A DNA stretch of 64,000 nucleotides from an uncultured Acidobacteriia bacterium. Its GTDB lineage: Bacteria; Acidobacteriota; Terriglobia; Bryobacterales; Bryobacteraceae. Location of the stretch: contig CAIYVZ010000084.1 of NCBI GenBank assembly GCA_903929755.1, forward strand, positions 1 through 64,000, in the 5' to 3' direction. The notes beneath the pieces are model-generated. The model ran no database searches. It worked only from the letters and a program-made list of their open reading frames with translations, and was not told the origin of the DNA. A program made the position numbers and the translations under genes. This document shows positions 1 to 11,426 of this stretch, piece after piece. How positions within the stretch are numbered: the first letter of the stretch is position 1; each line of letters starts with the position of its first letter.

Positions 1-51
1 CACGAATACCGAATAACGGGCATGAGCGTCACAACCGATATACTGTTTCAC
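1..51 (-). CDS. IS110-family transposase/recombinase, N-terminal fragment cut by the window edge
   Basis: Reading the minus strand from a GTG at 51, the first 17 codons give MKQYIGCDAHARYSVFV and run off the window. This matches the start of IS110-family DEDD recombinases, whose N-terminus typically reads 'Y(I/V)G(I/C)DAHxxYS' and carries the first catalytic Asp (here D8). A strong Shine-Dalgarno AAGGAGG (67-61 on the minus strand) precedes the GTG. Only the N-terminus is visible, so intactness and subgroup are unknown. The family call rests on one short motif plus the ribosome binding site; another DAH-type transposase would be the alternative. Confidence 0.68.
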   Translation of the reverse strand, partial: MKQYIGCDAHARYSVFV

Positions 52-125
52 GCTGCCGTAACCTCCTTGCGATTGAACTAAGCGCGTATTCGATTTTTAC
101 CGAATCGGCCGGAGTTGCGGCAGCG
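51..125 (-). other. Structured leader of the IS110-type gene (long inverted repeat with nested hairpin)
   Basis: CGCTGCCGTAAC at 51-62 and GTTGCGGCAGCG at 114-125 are inverted repeats matching at 11 of 12 positions. A second hairpin lies inside: ATTCG at 88-92 with CGAAT at 101-105. On the minus-strand transcript the outer stem ends at the GTG start and runs next to or partly into the Shine-Dalgarno sequence. IS110 elements are known to encode a bridge RNA in a non-coding end, often upstream of the recombinase. This could be part of that RNA or a translational control hairpin; which one is inference. Confidence 0.5.
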
Positions 126-243
126 CCCTACATATAATCACAAAGAAATTCCTAAAATCGTCCGAACCAAATCAACAACTTAACCACGCCCCAGAAAGAT
201 CCTGCACGCCACCCCTGCTACTCCTCAATCGAGGAAGCACAAA

Positions 244-972
244 ATGACGACCATCTCCGAAGCGCAACTCCAGGCCAACCGCGCCAACGCGCAGCACTCC
301 ACCGGCCCCCGCACTGAAGCCGGAAAATCACGCTCCCGTCTCAACGCCACCCGCCACGGCCTCACCGGCCAGTTCTTCGTCCTCTCCGAAGAAGACCGCC
401 ACGCCTACGACACCTTCGAACAGGGTATGCTCGCCGGCCTCAAGCCCGAAGGCACCGAAGAAAACCAGCTCGCCGTCTCCATCGCGCAGGACCACTGGCG
501 CATCAACCGCTCCCGCGCCATCGAATTCAACTCCCTCGGCATCGGCCACGGCGAACTCGTCGATGATGTCAACGCCAATTCCCCCGAAGTCCAGGCCGCC
601 ATCGCCCAGGCACAAACCTGGCGTCGTGAGCCGCAATACTTCGCCACCATCGCCCTCTACGAACACCGCCTCAACCGAACCATCGCCCGCAATAAGAAGG
701 ATCTCGCCGAACTCCAGACCCGTCGCCTCGAAACCGAACGCCAGGCCCGCCGCGAAGCTGAACTCCTCCTCCGCCAGGCGTACCGCCGCCAGGAAATGGT
801 CGATCCCACCACTCCCGTCCAGGTCAATGGCTTCGTTTATTCAGTCCCCGAACTCATCACCAGCATCAACCGCGCCGTCAACCTCAAAGAGGCCGCCTTC
901 TATGAAAAATACGGCTGGAAGACCACCTTGCCCTACCCCTGCGAAGACGAAAGGCTCCACCTTGCCGCCTAA
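244..972 (+). CDS. Acidobacterial paralogous-family protein ('NRANAQHSTGPRT' family)
   Basis: A 242-residue soluble protein. The N-terminal motif around residues 12-40 (NRANAQHSTGPRTEAGK, then a short basic stretch and ATRHGLTG) is the hallmark of a family found in many copies in Solibacter-like genomes; its function is unknown. The middle (about 145-185) is rich in Arg, Glu and Leu and likely helical or coiled. There is no signal peptide or membrane segment. The start is supported by GAGGAAG eight bases upstream. It lies between the IS110-type leader and gyrA, in a C-rich coding style shared with gyrA. Confidence 0.75.
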   Translation: MTTISEAQLQANRANAQHSTGPRTEAGKSRSRLNATRHGLTGQFFVLSEEDRHAYDTFEQGMLAGLKPEGTEENQLAVSIAQDHWRINRSRAIEFNSLGIGHGELVDDVNANSPEVQAAIAQAQTWRREPQYFATIALYEHRLNRTIARNKKDLAELQTRRLETERQARREAELLLRQAYRRQEMVDPTTPVQVNGFVYSVPELITSINRAVNLKEAAFYEKYGWKTTLPYPCEDERLHLAA

Positions 973-5724: not shown

Positions 5725-7950
5725 TTAGTCAGTCTTCGGAGCTATCGTCGGAGGGGCCTGCTCGCCGATATGGCTGGCAAGCTCCTCGCTCACATCCCGG
5801 AGAGCTTGCTGCTGCCGCTCGGGGTTCTCCAGGTCTTTTTCCAGCCGCTGCAATGCCGCGCCAATCACATCGCGGTGGTGCAGTTTGGAACCGAACTGAG
5901 CCGATAGCCCCAGCCAGATCTGGTGCGCGCGCTCCACGTCTTCGGGCCACAAACGGGGCGGGTGGGGCCCCAGGTTGACGAAGTGCGAAGGCCGGTCCGG
6001 GGTCAAAATCTCAAGCGAGAAAGCGTGCCGCGGTTCCGGCAGTTTCTCCCACGCTATGCCAATGCGGCGAGCCAGTTCCGCCGTCTCCATGCGGAGCGAT
6101 GCGCCGGTAACAACACGCGAAACCTGGAGTGTTTGGGCCGTTTGCATGATCGCTCCGAACGGATCCGCACTGGGTACCACCAGCAGTTCCACGGTCTTGC
6201 CTTCCTTCTCGGCCATGCTGACGACCTTGGTAAACAGCTCTCGTTCGTACTCCGAGAAGACTTGTGCCGGAGCCAGTTGGTCGCCGCTGTTAATGGGACG
6301 AACGGTCATCACGATGATGTCGTGCCGCCGCAGGTTGGTCTTCCGCAACACCGACTGCAGGTGCGCCAGGTTGCTCATCTCGCGAGCCGCCACCAGGATG
6401 GAACCCGGACGGGCGTTCAGGAGCGTGGTCGCCATTTCCGGCTGCGAGTCGAGGTTGAACTCTTCGAGGCCCGCCAGATGGCCGTCCTTGCGCTTCCGGT
6501 TGATGTGTTCGGAAACGGTGAAGATCAGGAACAGCAGGACCGTGAAGGCAATACCGTAGATAGTGGCGAACTTCTTCGAGAACAGGTTCGCCACCGCTGT
6601 ACAGCCCAGCAGCAGGGTCGCCATGCCCAGGCCGATCGGAAGCTCGATGCCTCCGATGGTGATGTTGCCCGGGAACTTGTATTCCTGGTCGCGCCGGTGA
6701 TACCGAAGCACCAGAACGCCGAGGGCCTTCAGGAAGAAGCTCCAGACCACGCCGAACGCGTAGGCTTCGCCGAGCAGATAAACGTTGCCACCGCTTAGGG
6801 CGATGGTGACAATCTGCAGAATGGCCACCAGGTTGATGATGCGGTAGGTGGTGCCGAACCTGGGGTGTGGCTTGCGGAACCAGGGGATCAGCACGCCGTC
6901 TTCCGCCACCCGGTTCATCACGCCATTAGCGCCGATGATAGACGTGTTGGTCGCGCCCGAGAGAATCAGGACGCCGACGATCACGACGAAGATGTGGAAG
7001 CCCAGCTTCAGTAACTCTGGCCCCGCAAGGTGCATGGCGAGGCCACCCAGCAGGTTGTCCACATACTTGGGGCGGATGTCGTTGGGGATAATCATCGATG
7101 CGAACAGGGTGATGACGCCCGTGCCAATTGCCGCGTAGAAGCAGACGATGTTGCCCGTAATCTTCAGGTTCTTCAGCTTCGGGTAAGCGATTTCGCGATA
7201 TACCTGAGCCAGCGTCTCGAAGCCCGACATGGAGAGCAGAGAGTGGCCGAACGCGATGACAACGGCAATCATCGAAATGGTGGGGAAGATAGTGCCCTTG
7301 AACCAGCCAAGCGCGTCTTCGCTGAAGTGGAGGTTCGCGGCAACCGGCGCCGGCGGGATTTGAGCGGGGCCGTGCAGCAAAAGCGTAATCGGGCACCAGA
7401 CCAGGAAGATTACAACCATCACTGTGGTGACCTGCATGATACGAAGAGCCTTGCCGCTCGATTCGTGCATGCCCTTCAGGTTTTCCCACCAAAAGTAAAC
7501 GGTAGCCAGAATTGCGAACCCGGCTGAGAAGAGATCGGGCGGAACTTTCAGCCCGAATTCATTCAGCAAGCCTGCCATATATTGGCCAGCGCTGACTACG
7601 CTGATGGGGCCGGTCAGGATGTAATCGAACAGCAGGGAAGAGACGGAAATTCTGGCTACAAACGGGCCCATGGCGTCGCGAACCACCACGTAAACGCCGC
7701 CCCGGACGAACATGGAAGAACTTTCGATATAGATGGACCGAACGGCAAAACTGAACAGCATGACGCCCAGAACGAACCAGGGCGCGGAGGGTCCAATAGC
7801 CTTCTCGGCGATGCCGCCGGCGTAGAACGCGGACGACGCGAGATCGGCGAGAACGATGGACGCCGCGCGCCAAAAGGAAATGAACGCGAGGGCGACGGTG
7901 GTCGCAATAACAACCTTGGAACCAGTAGTTCTGGCCACGGGTGATGACAT
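5725..7950 (-). CDS. KimA/YdaO-like APC-superfamily potassium transporter with C-terminal cytoplasmic domain
   Basis: A 741-residue membrane protein. Residues 10-490 hold about twelve hydrophobic segments with APC-type motifs (DLASSAFYAGG, FVRGGVYVVVRDAMG, LLFDYILTGPISVVSAGQY). The last ~220 residues form a soluble USP-like domain starting near PGSILVAAREMSN. The arrangement matches the KimA (YdaO) K+ uptake family rather than a simple amino acid permease. The ATG at 7950 is chosen over an upstream frame because AGGAG sits eight bases before it. A c-di-AMP riboswitch in its leader strongly supports the potassium role, as this riboswitch class classically controls such transporters. Transport substrate remains inference. 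Confidence 0.85.
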   Translation of the reverse strand: MSSPVARTTGSKVVIATTVALAFISFWRAASIVLADLASSAFYAGGIAEKAIGPSAPWFVLGVMLFSFAVRSIYIESSSMFVRGGVYVVVRDAMGPFVARISVSSLLFDYILTGPISVVSAGQYMAGLLNEFGLKVPPDLFSAGFAILATVYFWWENLKGMHESSGKALRIMQVTTVMVVIFLVWCPITLLLHGPAQIPPAPVAANLHFSEDALGWFKGTIFPTISMIAVVIAFGHSLLSMSGFETLAQVYREIAYPKLKNLKITGNIVCFYAAIGTGVITLFASMIIPNDIRPKYVDNLLGGLAMHLAGPELLKLGFHIFVVIVGVLILSGATNTSIIGANGVMNRVAEDGVLIPWFRKPHPRFGTTYRIINLVAILQIVTIALSGGNVYLLGEAYAFGVVWSFFLKALGVLVLRYHRRDQEYKFPGNITIGGIELPIGLGMATLLLGCTAVANLFSKKFATIYGIAFTVLLFLIFTVSEHINRKRKDGHLAGLEEFNLDSQPEMATTLLNARPGSILVAAREMSNLAHLQSVLRKTNLRRHDIIVMTVRPINSGDQLAPAQVFSEYERELFTKVVSMAEKEGKTVELLVVPSADPFGAIMQTAQTLQVSRVVTGASLRMETAELARRIGIAWEKLPEPRHAFSLEILTPDRPSHFVNLGPHPPRLWPEDVERAHQIWLGLSAQFGSKLHHRDVIGAALQRLEKDLENPERQQQALRDVSEELASHIGEQAPPTIAPKTD

Positions 7951-8002
7951 GAAAAAGACTCCTGTTTCTCCCTCCACATCAGGTGGAGAGGCGCTCCCAA
8001 TA

Positions 8003-8142
8003 GAGCCTGCGAGGTTAGCTGACGGGCTGGAGTTTGAAAGTCCTCCGTTCCTGGTTTGCTAAAAAAGCGCCCAGAAACTTCGCCCCGTGAAACCGGGTCC
8101 CCCGCTTCTGCCGCGAAGAGTGTCGCAACAAGAATTCGGCAA
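8003..8142 (-). promoter_or_regulatory. c-di-AMP riboswitch (ydaO/yuaA motif)
   Basis: The minus-strand leader of the KimA-like gene carries the conserved ydaO elements in order: GCCGAATTC (8140-8132), GCGGGGGACCCGG (about 8105-8093), ACGGGGCGAAGTTTC, then CCCGTCAGCTAACCTCG with the adjoining GCAGGC (ending near 8005). The 5' GCC and 3' GGC can form the closing P1 stem, and the ~140 nt length is normal for the class. Downstream, CTCCAC/GTGGAG can form a hairpin just before the Shine-Dalgarno sequence, a plausible expression platform. Binding of c-di-AMP normally switches K+ importers off. Recognition is by motif from memory, without a covariance search. Confidence 0.88.
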
Positions 8143-8170
8143 TTTCAGGTTAACATGAGATTGTTAGAGT

Positions 8171-9529
8171 GTGGAAGCCCTCGCAAAGTCGGTAGTTCGG
8201 CGGTTGAGGCACGAAGGCCATGCCGCATGGCTGGTAGGTGGCTGTGTTCGGGATCTGCTGATCGGGCGAGCCCCCAAGGATTTCGATGTCGCCACCGATG
8301 CCGTACCGGACGAACTACGCCAGATCTTTCCCGGCGCGCGAGAGGTGGGCGCGCACTTTGGCGTAATCCTTGTTGTGGACGGGGAGCACTCCGTGGAAGT
8401 GGCGACTTTCCGCAGCGAAGGCACCTATTCCGACGGTCGCCGGCCCGATGCGGTGCGCTTTGAGACCGACCCCCGCGAAGATGTCCTTCGCCGCGATTTC
8501 ACCATCAACGGCCTGCTTCTGGATCCCGAAACCAGCGAGGTGCTGGACTTCGTGGCAGGCAAGGCAGACCTGAACGCCGGCCTGATCCGAACCATCGGTG
8601 ACCCGGAGTTGCGTTTTACTGAGGACCATCTGCGGATGCTGCGGGCGGTGCGCTTTGCCGCAGCGCTGGAGTTTGAGATGGAAGCCGGGACATTCTCGGC
8701 GATCCAGCGCATGGCGCCCGCGATCCAGCGGATTTCCATGGAGAGGGTTCGCGATGAGGTGTCGCGAATGCTCACCCAGGGGCATCCGCGGCGTGGTTTT
8801 GAACTGCTCTCGGACAGCGGCTTATTGCGCGAAATCCTGCCGGAAATCGAGGCCCTGAAAGGCGTGGCCCAGCCAGCGCAGTATCACCCGGAAGGCGACG
8901 TGTGGGCGCACACGATGATGATGTTGGAGGGCCTCCAAAACCCATCGCTCGAACTGGCGCTCGGAGTCTTACTGCACGATGTGGGGAAGCCTGCCACCTT
9001 CCGCATTGCCGACCGCATCCGCTTTGACGGCCATGTAGCGAAGGGCGTGGAGATCGGGCGCAGGCTTCTGACGCGCCTGCGCTTTTCTCTGGCCGTTACC
9101 GAGGCGGTCTGCCTGATGATTGAGAATCACATGAAGTTCCGCGATGTTGCGGTGATGAAAGAGAGCACTCTCAAGCGTTTCCTGCGGTTGCCAAAGTTCG
9201 ACGAACATCTGGAACTGCATCGGCTCGACTGCCTGTCGAGCAACGGCCATCTCGACATGTACGAACTTGCCAAAACCCGCTTTCACGAGACCCCGGAAGC
9301 GCATTTACGGCCTGCGAAATTACTGGGAGGGCAAGACCTGATTGCAGCCGGTTTCACGCCCGGTCCGGCCTTCGGACCCGTCCTCCATGATGTGGAAGAC
9401 GCTCAACTGGAGGGGGTAATTACGACTCGGGAGGAGGCTCTGGCACTGGCGCTTGATCTGTTAGCGTCTTCAGTTTCGCCTGCTGTACCGCGATCAAAGT
9501 TTTCGCCAGCATCGCCGCCAAAAGGATGA
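8171..9529 (+). CDS. CCA-adding enzyme / poly(A) polymerase-type nucleotidyltransferase with HD domain
   Basis: A 452-residue class II nucleotidyltransferase starting at GTG. The head domain has GGCVRDLL and the metal-binding pair in APKDFDVAT. The arm has RRDFTINGL and the neck has RFTEDHLRMLRAVRFAA. An HD phosphohydrolase domain follows (HTMMML and LLHDVGKPATF, near residues 240-275). Such proteins add or repair the tRNA 3' CCA end or polyadenylate RNA; the sequence alone does not decide which. The last 35 or so residues are read antisense to a small membrane-protein gene and look low in complexity, so the essential enzyme probably ends earlier. Confidence 0.9.
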   Translation: MEALAKSVVRRLRHEGHAAWLVGGCVRDLLIGRAPKDFDVATDAVPDELRQIFPGAREVGAHFGVILVVDGEHSVEVATFRSEGTYSDGRRPDAVRFETDPREDVLRRDFTINGLLLDPETSEVLDFVAGKADLNAGLIRTIGDPELRFTEDHLRMLRAVRFAAALEFEMEAGTFSAIQRMAPAIQRISMERVRDEVSRMLTQGHPRRGFELLSDSGLLREILPEIEALKGVAQPAQYHPEGDVWAHTMMMLEGLQNPSLELALGVLLHDVGKPATFRIADRIRFDGHVAKGVEIGRRLLTRLRFSLAVTEAVCLMIENHMKFRDVAVMKESTLKRFLRLPKFDEHLELHRLDCLSSNGHLDMYELAKTRFHETPEAHLRPAKLLGGQDLIAAGFTPGPAFGPVLHDVEDAQLEGVITTREEALALALDLLASSVSPAVPRSKFSPASPPKG

Positions 9530-9644: not shown

Positions 9645-11426
9645 CTAACGCCTGACAACAACGGTTGAGGCCCAGGCACTGCTGCCTCTGGCATCCCACG
9701 CCTTGACGACGATGGTGTTGGTACCGACGTATAAAGGCACGCCTGCCGCGAGCCAGTTGGTGGTCCCCTGGGCAATGCCGGCCGCGCCTGCCGAGGTTTG
9801 CCAGGTGACGCGGGAGATGCCCGAGCCGGAAGCCGCAACGCCTCCCAGCGTGAGGGTGGCACCCGAGACTGTGGACGTGAGAGGGGCGGGGGTGCGGATG
9901 GCCACCGAGAGCGGCACGTTCGAGGTTGAGGGGGAAGCTGCGGCCGCCTGCCTGGTGACAGTAACGGCTGCGGCGGCGCTTTGCAGCGCGCCGTCATAGG
10001 CGTTGATGGAGATCGCGTTGTCACCGACGACCAGCGGAATGCCGGTCGTGTTCCAGGCCTGGGTCCGCAGCGTGGCCTTGCCGGTGGCGCCGCCCGAGGT
10101 TTGCCACTGCACGGTAACGGGAGCCTTGCCGCCTGTCGCGGTGCCGGACAGCGTGGTGGTTTCGCCTGTCGTCGAGACTGGAACCGCGTCCACAGTCAGG
10201 CGCAGCGCTGGTGGAGGGACCGGGTCTGTGGGTTGGGTAATGGGGGCGGGGGCGCTGCCGGCAGGCTTGCCATACAGGCTCTGGGCTGCGGCGATATCGT
10301 TGGCGGAGAGTGACGAATGGCTGTGATAGTAGGGGTACATCACGTCGCCCGGCTTGTCGGAATGGCCGAGGCCGATGGCGTGCCCCGCTTCGTGGAGCGC
10401 CACACTGAAGATGTCAGTATCGCCGCCCGCATGCCAGTTTTCATCGGCATCCAGATGCATGTCGCCGGCGAGGGTCTCGGCATTCACGGGAACCGGATAG
10501 AAGGTATGGGCCAGCGAGCCGGTGGGCCCGTCGAAGGGGTAGGAATCTCCGTGTGCGCCGCTGACGAACTTGATGAGGATATTGCGCGGTCCCCCCGGGT
10601 TGGTGCCGGGCTGGAAGGTGAGATTGGTGACTTGCGTCCATAAGCTCAGGGCGCGGAGAACTTCCGAACGGACGGTAAGCGCGGGTATTTTGGGGGTTAC
10701 AGAACCAAAGAGATAAGTGAGGTGGAGGAAGTGGTCCGCGTCGAGGTCCCAACCGTGGACGATGGTGGCGTATTGCCCGGCCATACCGTTGGTGGTTAAC
10801 ATGCCCGCGCAGGTGAGAAGGCCTTCCGGCGCGGTGTCTCCGGTCAGGTCCGGATCGGCGGGAAAGATGTAGGCGACCTCGTCGTAGACTGCCAGCTTTC
10901 GGAGCGCGGCAATATCTGCTGAGACGATGCCGTGCTGTGTCTGGAGGTACGGTACGCGCCGCAGTTCCACGCCTGCAGCACCGGCTACGGTGTCCTGTTG
11001 GCCGGGGGTGACATCGGAGTGAAATTCGATGAGCGCGAGGATCTGGTCGCCGTTCTGGTCGCCGTTCTGGCCGTTCGGGGTCAGGGCGGGACTGAGCTTG
11101 TCGGCAGCGTCCATCGGGCCGGCCCACGAGATACCCTCGCGAACGTTTACTTTACCGCCGGGCGCCGAGACAATGACGGCATTGTCGGGAAGGGCTCCCA
11201 CCACGCTGATGCCATCGCGTAACAGAGCGGCAACTTCCTCCGCGCCGGGAGGATGATCATACTGCAGGATTTTGTGGACGACCGAGGTATCCCTCAGGGC
11301 ATCGTCAACTGATTGAAGTTGTAGCGCGTCAGCCGTCGTGGCTAATGTGCGGGTCTTGAAATGTAAATCCTGACCCCAACACGCACAGGCCAACAGCAGT
11401 AAGCACCTCCGAAGGTACCTCTCCAT
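9645..11426 (-). CDS. Secreted matrixin-type zinc metalloprotease with C-terminal Ig-like modules
   Basis: A 593-residue protein. A signal peptide covers residues 1-18 and a propeptide-like region about 20-200. The metzincin catalytic domain (about 220-388) has zinc site HEAGHAIGLGH at 345-355 and Met-turn DVMYP at 361-365. After a Pro-rich linker come two similar ~90-residue Ig-like modules, each with a GG-x-V-TWQT/TVQWQTS strand and a closing 'W...G.PL.VG.N.I.V.A.D' segment. It is presumably an exported peptidase acting on extracellular protein. A short duplicated stretch encodes NGDQNGDQ near residue 121. The gene is divergent from thiD. Confidence 0.88.
   Translation of the reverse strand: MERYLRRCLLLLACACWGQDLHFKTRTLATTADALQLQSVDDALRDTSVVHKILQYDHPPGAEEVAALLRDGISVVGALPDNAVIVSAPGGKVNVREGISWAGPMDAADKLSPALTPNGQNGDQNGDQILALIEFHSDVTPGQQDTVAGAAGVELRRVPYLQTQHGIVSADIAALRKLAVYDEVAYIFPADPDLTGDTAPEGLLTCAGMLTTNGMAGQYATIVHGWDLDADHFLHLTYLFGSVTPKIPALTVRSEVLRALSLWTQVTNLTFQPGTNPGGPRNILIKFVSGAHGDSYPFDGPTGSLAHTFYPVPVNAETLAGDMHLDADENWHAGGDTDIFSVALHEAGHAIGLGHSDKPGDVMYPYYHSHSSLSANDIAAAQSLYGKPAGSAPAPITQPTDPVPPPALRLTVDAVPVSTTGETTTLSGTATGGKAPVTVQWQTSGGATGKATLRTQAWNTTGIPLVVGDNAISINAYDGALQSAAAAVTVTRQAAAASPSTSNVPLSVAIRTPAPLTSTVSGATLTLGGVAASGSGISRVTWQTSAGAAGIAQGTTNWLAAGVPLYVGTNTIVVKAWDARGSSAWASTVVVRR

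Follow-up and report, generated by a model that had tools for sequence, protein, structure and literature searches.

A c-di-AMP riboswitch in the leader of a probable potassium-type APC transporter gene, divergent from a CCA-type nucleotidyltransferase gene, in Acidobacteria

The window analysed here is a stretch of 64,000 nucleotides (nt), positions 1 to 64,000 of contig CAIYVZ010000084.1 (assembly GCA_903929755.1), from an uncultured member of the Bryobacteraceae which we take to be a soil bacterium of the Acidobacteria. On the minus strand of this window a riboswitch for cyclic di-AMP (c-di-AMP) lies directly before the gene of an APC-superfamily transporter, called X below, and facing away from both is a gene for a nucleotidyltransferase of the CCA-adding type (the CCA gene). 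The best explanation of the locus as a whole, to which we assign a probability of about 0.72, is that a genuine riboswitch of the RF00379 family leads the mRNA of X and that X is a transporter of the potassium type.

Minus-strand positions 8151-7989 match the whole of the RF00379 model (c-di-AMP, ydaO/yuaA leader; model positions 1-134) with 73.6 bits (gathering threshold 38 bits), the E value of 3.3e-15 being computed for the 64-kb window. This was the sole Rfam hit at gathering threshold in the window and the one RF00379 match in the host's 6.86-Mb genome, and 38 nt separate it from the ATG of X at 7950 on the same strand. The initial annotation had placed a c-di-AMP riboswitch on this strand before the transporter, and the match bears this out, with both of the sequences that it had singled out, GCCGAATTC and GCTAACCTCG, lying inside. 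The riboswitch is confirmed as a standard, known kind of c-di-AMP sensor. The same genome carries one DAC cyclase gene in the order cdaA-ybbR-glmM (Pfam identifies a CdaA-type protein and, after it, a YbbR protein, and the next open reading frame (ORF) reads by eye like GlmM), so that the host is probably able to make the ligand. The features of the leader and the transporter gene, all on the minus strand, are as follows.

7989..8151, minus strand: c-di-AMP riboswitch, RF00379 match over the full model (73.6 bits, E 3.3e-15)
8005..8140, minus strand: aptamer proper, running from the first base of stem P1, where the transcript is predicted to start, as far as the end of P1 (Rfam structure line; start placed from the -10 spacing)
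7994..8000, minus strand: 3' tail UUGGGAG, able to pair with CUUUCAA of the aptamer, a putative pseudoknot tail (by reading; the RF00379 consensus has a GAGAG tail)
7972..7988, minus strand: hairpin CUCCAC/GUGGAG between the aptamer and the Shine-Dalgarno (SD) site (sequence; a hairpin in the same place covaries in 17 other loci)
7959..7963, minus strand: SD site AGGAG, 8 nt before ATG 7950 (sequence reading)
5725..7950, minus strand: transporter X, 741 amino acids (aa), ATG 7950 (ORF, Pfam, predicted structure), with a membrane part at residues 24-476, a part predicted to be like universal stress proteins (USP) at about 514-651 and then a helical tail (Pfam, predicted structure)

The partnership of riboswitch and transporter recurs within the family. 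RF00379 was found in 49 of 200 genomes of the same family (19 of 76 genera), and at all 49 riboswitches a match to the X family starts 2-101 nt past the Rfam 3' end on the same strand, while a divergent CCA tRNA nucleotidyltransferase gene adjoins 16 of them. Among genomes of the same genus the riboswitch is present in 8 of 12, and also in five of the further genomes that were checked via their transporter loci. X itself occurs in 186 of the 200 family genomes, in at least five of them weakly, so the distribution of the riboswitch is patchy. A single riboswitch is followed by a tandem pair of X genes at L038 and at L033, L040, L041, L045 and L048, and in the latter five the first gene of the pair is the more distant copy (55-57%) and the second the closer one (66-73%). 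A wider sample of the phylum gave RF00379 in 53 of 297 genomes, with 66 matches; seven of 20 loci examined there (L191, L193, L198, L200, L205, L207 and L208) precede X or relatives of KimA, the K+ transporter of Bacillus subtilis, as judged by tblastn, and an eighth, L192 (G432:C86), precedes a transporter-like protein that has site residues of the KimA type and stands on a long branch of its own. The riboswitches at L201, L203 and L204 precede different ORFs, which read by eye as one D-alanine ligase-like and two flavin-dependent-like proteins.

The only Pfam match of X is AA_permease_2 over its membrane part, residues 24-476, which places it in the APC superfamily, and NCBIfam gave weak matches to amino-acid transporters, far below their cut-offs. 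A query with B. subtilis KimA found no match in the host genome at E 0.001. KimA-like genes (L174-L179) occur separately from X in 6 of 13 genomes of the same genus, five of them (one partial) showing 39-44% identity to KimA and one, a fragment of 74 residues, 34%; the RF00379 matches of these genomes, where found, lie elsewhere, before X. Because the KimA query misses X and because KimA-like genes exist beside it, X is not regarded as the KimA ortholog, and on these sequence comparisons it belongs to an APC family of its own, distinct from that of KimA.

The residues of the transport site are shared between the two families. In aligned columns Asp36, Tyr43, Asp117 and Tyr118 of KimA correspond to X residues 36, 43, 109 and 110, and Thr121, Thr230, Glu233 and Tyr377 to 113, 242, 245 and 397, with Ser replacing Thr230; the motifs D-x2-SS-x2-Y, DY and E are common to both proteins. 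In the portions of text available, from which all papers with a PMC number are cited here, Tyr43, Asp36, Thr230 and Tyr377 are given as the K+ ligands of KimA (PMC10284832), and D36, D117 and E233 as the counterparts of residues that are essential in Escherichia coli Kup (PMC6994465). Asp36, Tyr43, Asp109, Thr113, Ser117, Ser242, Glu245 and Tyr397 of X were invariant in 32 of 32 X proteins and Tyr110 was kept in 31, whereas none of the 11 other APC permeases of the host genome has the equivalent of Asp at 36, of Tyr at 43 or of Tyr at 397. A maximum-likelihood tree, unrooted, split X, KimA and the riboswitch-linked relatives from 10 permeases at 100/100. An earlier tree had given X, KimA and the permeases as three clades with permease L169 outside, and L169 was dropped for the second tree, the one with the 100/100 split, in which X and KimA form separate clades. 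Comparison of the X profile with a KimA profile by hhalign, from which L174 and L178 were left out, scored 123 (98.5%, E 2.2e-15). A grouping with amino acid permeases, which had been named as one outcome that would count against the initial annotation, was examined in this way, and the tree sets X and KimA apart from them. X is probably a potassium-type transporter with the K+/H+ site of KimA. The earlier description of a KimA-like K+ transporter is upheld by the site residues and the tree, but has to be amended in that X is a separate family, with no KimA match found in the searches of the host genome and of PDB.

Structure prediction gave a full model of X of middling confidence, with a predicted local distance difference test score (pLDDT) of 73.9 and a predicted template modelling score (pTM) of 0.63. 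Full-length Foldseek placed KimA (8b70) first at 1.3e-14, and the top three of VIA-align were KimA entries with Z scores of 37.1 (root mean square deviation (rmsd) 14.8, 508 aligned), 36.2 and 34.8, followed by ApcT (Z 31.8, rmsd 3.1, 400 aligned) and amino-acid transporters, with NKCC1 at about 27; the model aligns to KimA over 30..654. The isolated soluble part (residues 492-741; pLDDT 86.4) resembles universal stress proteins, and the soluble end of X is predicted to be USP-like. Its best Foldseek row was the c-di-AMP-bound USP domain of KdpD (7ji4, E 5.5e-5), a likeness qualified by VIA, in which 7ji4 reached Z 11.7 (rmsd 3.1, 115 aligned) and other USPs tied or scored higher, up to 13.0, and by the lack in all 32 X proteins of the c-di-AMP motif of KdpD-type USPs, (A/G/C)XSXSX2N(Y/F) (PMC8214093). 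The soluble domain had been described as an addition to KimA, and this does not stand, as KimA itself has a soluble C-terminal domain (PMC10284832); X differs from it by a predicted USP-like fold and by some 80 further residues. The soluble domain of X and the PPAT-like cytosolic domain of KimA show no similarity in sequence, and the KimA domain was absent from the 50 rows returned for that of X, an absence that does not show the folds to differ.

The likely -10 elements lie between the aptamer and the divergent gene, and the promoter elements, all predicted, are given here with that gene.

8147..8155, minus strand: predicted extended -10 TGTTAACCT for riboswitch and transporter (placement conserved across riboswitch loci)
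8151..8156, plus strand: candidate -10 TAACAT for the CCA gene, predicted, its TA shared with the opposing -10 (sequence placement)
8171..8176, minus strand: zone of the transporter -35, TTCCAC, on the CCA start codon, weak (spacing only)
8171..9529, plus strand: CCA tRNA nucleotidyltransferase-type gene, 452 aa, GTG start (ORF; Pfam domains)

When 55 riboswitch loci were aligned on the first P1 base, 21 of them CCA-adjacent and 34 not (the 21 represent five genera, nine loci coming from a single genus, and L045, with its CCA start 92 nt away, was left out of them), TAnnnT was found to end 6-8 nt upstream of P1 in 21/21 CCA-adjacent and 29/34 other loci, other offsets averaging 0.39 and 0.16 loci each. 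The extended form TGnTAnnnT stood at the two main offsets in 20/21 and 15/34 loci respectively; in the 64 kb this pattern occurs 19 times on both strands together. TATGCT was also considered as the transporter -10 and was rejected, since loci without the CCA gene keep TAnnnT and not TATGCT. In the window the likely -10 hexamer of the transporter is 8152-8147 and that of the CCA gene 8151-8156. The base that completes the reverse -10 is present in 19/21 CCA-adjacent loci as against 4/22 others with a forward -10 (Fisher 2e-6, kinship uncorrected), and at L009, where a 4-nt insertion parts the two -10s, each keeps the distance to its own gene; the overlapping reverse -10 probably serves the CCA gene, whose transcript would start near 8163, 8 nt before the GTG. 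A scan of 7800-8400 with the sigma-70 consensus found no promoter, so the -35 elements must be weak or absent; neither is recognisable, and the -35 zone of the CCA gene would cover the first bases of the aptamer.

The initial annotation had the CCA promoter within the riboswitch and the transporter promoter inside the opposing coding region, and this picture of overlap is half borne out by the predicted elements. The divergent -10s do overlap, but both lie between the P1 base at 8140 and the CCA start at 8171; they are in the 5' flank of the Rfam match yet outside the transcribed aptamer, and while the transporter -35 zone would sit over the CCA start codon, its -10 is outside the CCA gene. 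The distance of 29 nt given for the divergent start is correct (GTG 8171 against 8142), and the assignment to tRNA or RNA processing is supported, the protein being of the CCA-adding-enzyme type by its PolyA_pol (PF01743) and PolyA_pol_RNAbd (PF12627) domains, head and RNA-binding domains that are both above the Pfam cut-off. It is below the cut-off of every NCBIfam CCA model (best NF009814, 258 against 290 bits), and could alternatively be an A-adding or poly(A) enzyme. Elsewhere in the window, at 9645-11426 on the minus strand, an ORF of 593 aa may, judged by eye, encode a secreted metalloprotease (HExxHxxGxxH) that has repeated modules at its C-terminus.

Evidence on the history of this arrangement came from 80 named loci, partly of the same genomes as the family survey, to which the riboswitch-bearing named loci are not additional. 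In 40 of them the CCA gene and X diverge within 500 nt, seven with a riboswitch and 33 without (L081, which carries one at its contig start, was excluded from the riboswitch-free set). The gap between the genes measures 27-161 nt without the riboswitch and 209-273 nt with it. AnnnTAnnnT, the pattern of the two overlapping -10s, is found in 18 of the 33 riboswitch-free spacers (200 shuffles: mean 5.8, largest 13; kinship uncorrected) and CGTA[AG][AG]AT in 16 (shuffled mean 0.1, largest 2). Many of these 33 loci, among them L088, L090 and L092, have a spacer sequence resembling TGATCGTAGAATA. Since riboswitch-free spacers keep AnnnTAnnnT, the divergent pair and its overlapping -10s appear independent of the riboswitch, and since these spacers are shorter by about 150 nt, approximately the length of a riboswitch, the riboswitch looks as if inserted into a divergent spacer older than itself. 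It may have been gained in some lineages rather than lost in others.

Between the aptamer and the SD site there is a conserved hairpin. Of the 55 riboswitch loci, 17 were selected for a tail, hairpin and SD that could be aligned by eye, so that the score leans towards structure, and the window's own hairpin is not included. In these 17, 86.3% of cells pair and 14 cells are changed on both sides; the covariation of 0.418 compares with a shuffled mean of 0.205, none of 500 shuffles being as high, and with at most 0.211 for slid versions. A scan of 7800-8400 for intrinsic terminators found no terminator-like site, and because of this and of the hairpin before the SD, control is likelier to be translational than by an intrinsic terminator, with repression of translation the likeliest form. 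The mechanism that we propose is as follows. RNA polymerase would start via the extended -10 (8155-8147), the predicted RNA beginning at or beside the first P1 base (~8140), in the 5' leader of what would be an older divergent CCA-X pair with back-to-back, overlapping -10s. c-di-AMP made by CdaA would then bind the aptamer, and the bound aptamer would most probably lower the synthesis of X when cell potassium is ample, as at kimA and ktrAB of B. subtilis, where c-di-AMP blocks expression at the riboswitches (PMC5573677). X would most likely import K+ together with H+ through its KimA-like site.

A number of observations weigh against this account. The riboswitch is present in 49 of the 200 family genomes as against 186 for X, and a second copy of X in the host's own genome (C127:33924-36110, L071), 68% identical, was found to have no riboswitch. 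Searches of PDB with X by phmmer and with a 32-sequence profile, at E up to 10, returned no KimA chain and only unrelated short matches. Arg337 of KimA, a c-di-AMP contact in the loop between transmembrane helices TM8 and TM9, is not kept (Pro356 in the X of the window; Asp, Glu, Gly or Asn in 13 other X proteins compared); one riboswitch-free KimA relative of the Acidobacteriota lacks it too. The column of KimA Ser125 is off by one in the X alignment. Two comparisons leave KimA level with other proteins: the X profile scored 65.3 by hhalign against single KimA and 63.8 against the host permease L163, a near tie, and human NCC (9bwt) stood at the same 1.3e-14 as KimA in full-length Foldseek. 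That X is a permease for amino acids or other organic solutes, placed under c-di-AMP control for an osmotic purpose by a riboswitch that is real, would agree with the tie with L163, with the Pfam match to AA_permease_2, with amino-acid transporters among the sub-cut-off NCBIfam matches and with those ranking under KimA in the structural rows for the transmembrane domain. It is nevertheless improbable given that the K+-site residues are fixed in 32 X proteins and missing from the host's permeases, that X splits from permeases at 100/100 and that other riboswitches in the phylum precede KimA and its relatives. The NCC result keeps an ion-chloride cotransporter-like function among the rivals, in which X would be a bacterial protein akin to the cation-chloride cotransporters (APC part plus USP-like domain) and not a K+/H+ symporter; in the Foldseek list KimA is directly followed by entries for NCC, NKCC and KCC, and the soluble domains of NCC and KCC align to that of X with Z 8.6-10.7. 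KimA clearly outranks them in Z score, at 37.1 compared with some 27 at most, and X has the three KimA motifs, and we hold this reading to be very improbable.

The direction of the switch and the independence of the two promoters are separate matters. SD accessibility was computed, for those loci with a start and an SD that could be picked, both in the full RNA and in the part that follows the aptamer, and the two did not differ consistently, which likewise tells against the proposed repression; no ON/OFF mechanism is therefore demonstrated, and sequestration of the SD by the aptamer was rejected as a demonstrated mechanism. As the fold predictions gave no readable direction, a switch of the ON type, or one that acts via transcription termination deeper inside the gene, must be considered, but it is rather unlikely when c-di-AMP blocks expression at the B. 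subtilis riboswitches of kimA and ktrAB (PMC5573677) and 7800-8400 contains no terminator-like site. Independent promoters for transporter and CCA gene, with a coincidental overlap of the -10s and the CCA start placed elsewhere, are an alternative that merits attention even though we lean against it. An extended -10-like match, TGTTAGAGT, does exist on the plus strand at 8162-8170, TAACAT, the reverse -10 here, lacks the extension, and the -35 is unrecognisable both ways. A start 7 nt past 8170 would, however, fall within the CCA frame, where homology in relatives extends from residue 2, and both the completing base of the reverse -10 (19/21 against 4/22) and AnnnTAnnnT in riboswitch-free spacers (18/33, against at most 13 in shuffles) argue for a promoter shared by the two genes.

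Titles and abstract beginnings in the open-licence literature revealed no work dealing with c-di-AMP riboswitches of Acidobacteria, and the sole mention of Acidobacteria in the available portion of PMC9337991 concerns a Na+ riboswitch. Rfam may already include such acidobacterial sequences; neither the importer family nor the layout with a shared promoter seems to have been described before. The boldest form of the proposal, that X is an undescribed acidobacterial family of K+ importers under double c-di-AMP control, of the mRNA through a riboswitch that came into an ancient CCA-X leader and of the protein through a USP-like domain binding c-di-AMP in a manner of its own, with an interlocked AnnnTAnnnT promoter firing both genes, is unlikely to hold in full. 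If it were true, that promoter would tie potassium uptake to the repair of tRNA 3' ends. More generally, c-di-AMP control of K+-type APC transporters would be extended to a further family, near universal in one acidobacterial family, and the same divergent promoter with and without the riboswitch provides natural pairs of loci for following riboswitch gain or loss.

Among known systems the locus is like the kimA (ydaO) leader and KimA of B. subtilis, in that the same riboswitch class stands directly before an APC-superfamily K+ transporter and the same K+/H+-site residues are found in X, and unlike it in the family of X, which is distinct and carries a predicted USP-like domain, and in the lack of any terminator-like site in the scan. 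Ktr itself is of the channel type and unrelated to X. The likeness to the ktrAB riboswitch of B. subtilis lies in the control of high-affinity K+ uptake by a riboswitch (PMC5573677). The bidirectional promoters of bacteria, whose -10 elements are symmetric, are defined by starts 7-25 bp apart, most commonly 18 bp (Warman et al. 2021, via PMC10268837). Unlike the symmetric promoters of that commonest spacing, the -10s here share a TA dinucleotide (AnnnTAnnnT) and the starts are predicted ones; as in those promoters the opposing -10s overlap, and the predicted distance of 23 bp between the starts is within the range of 7-25 bp.

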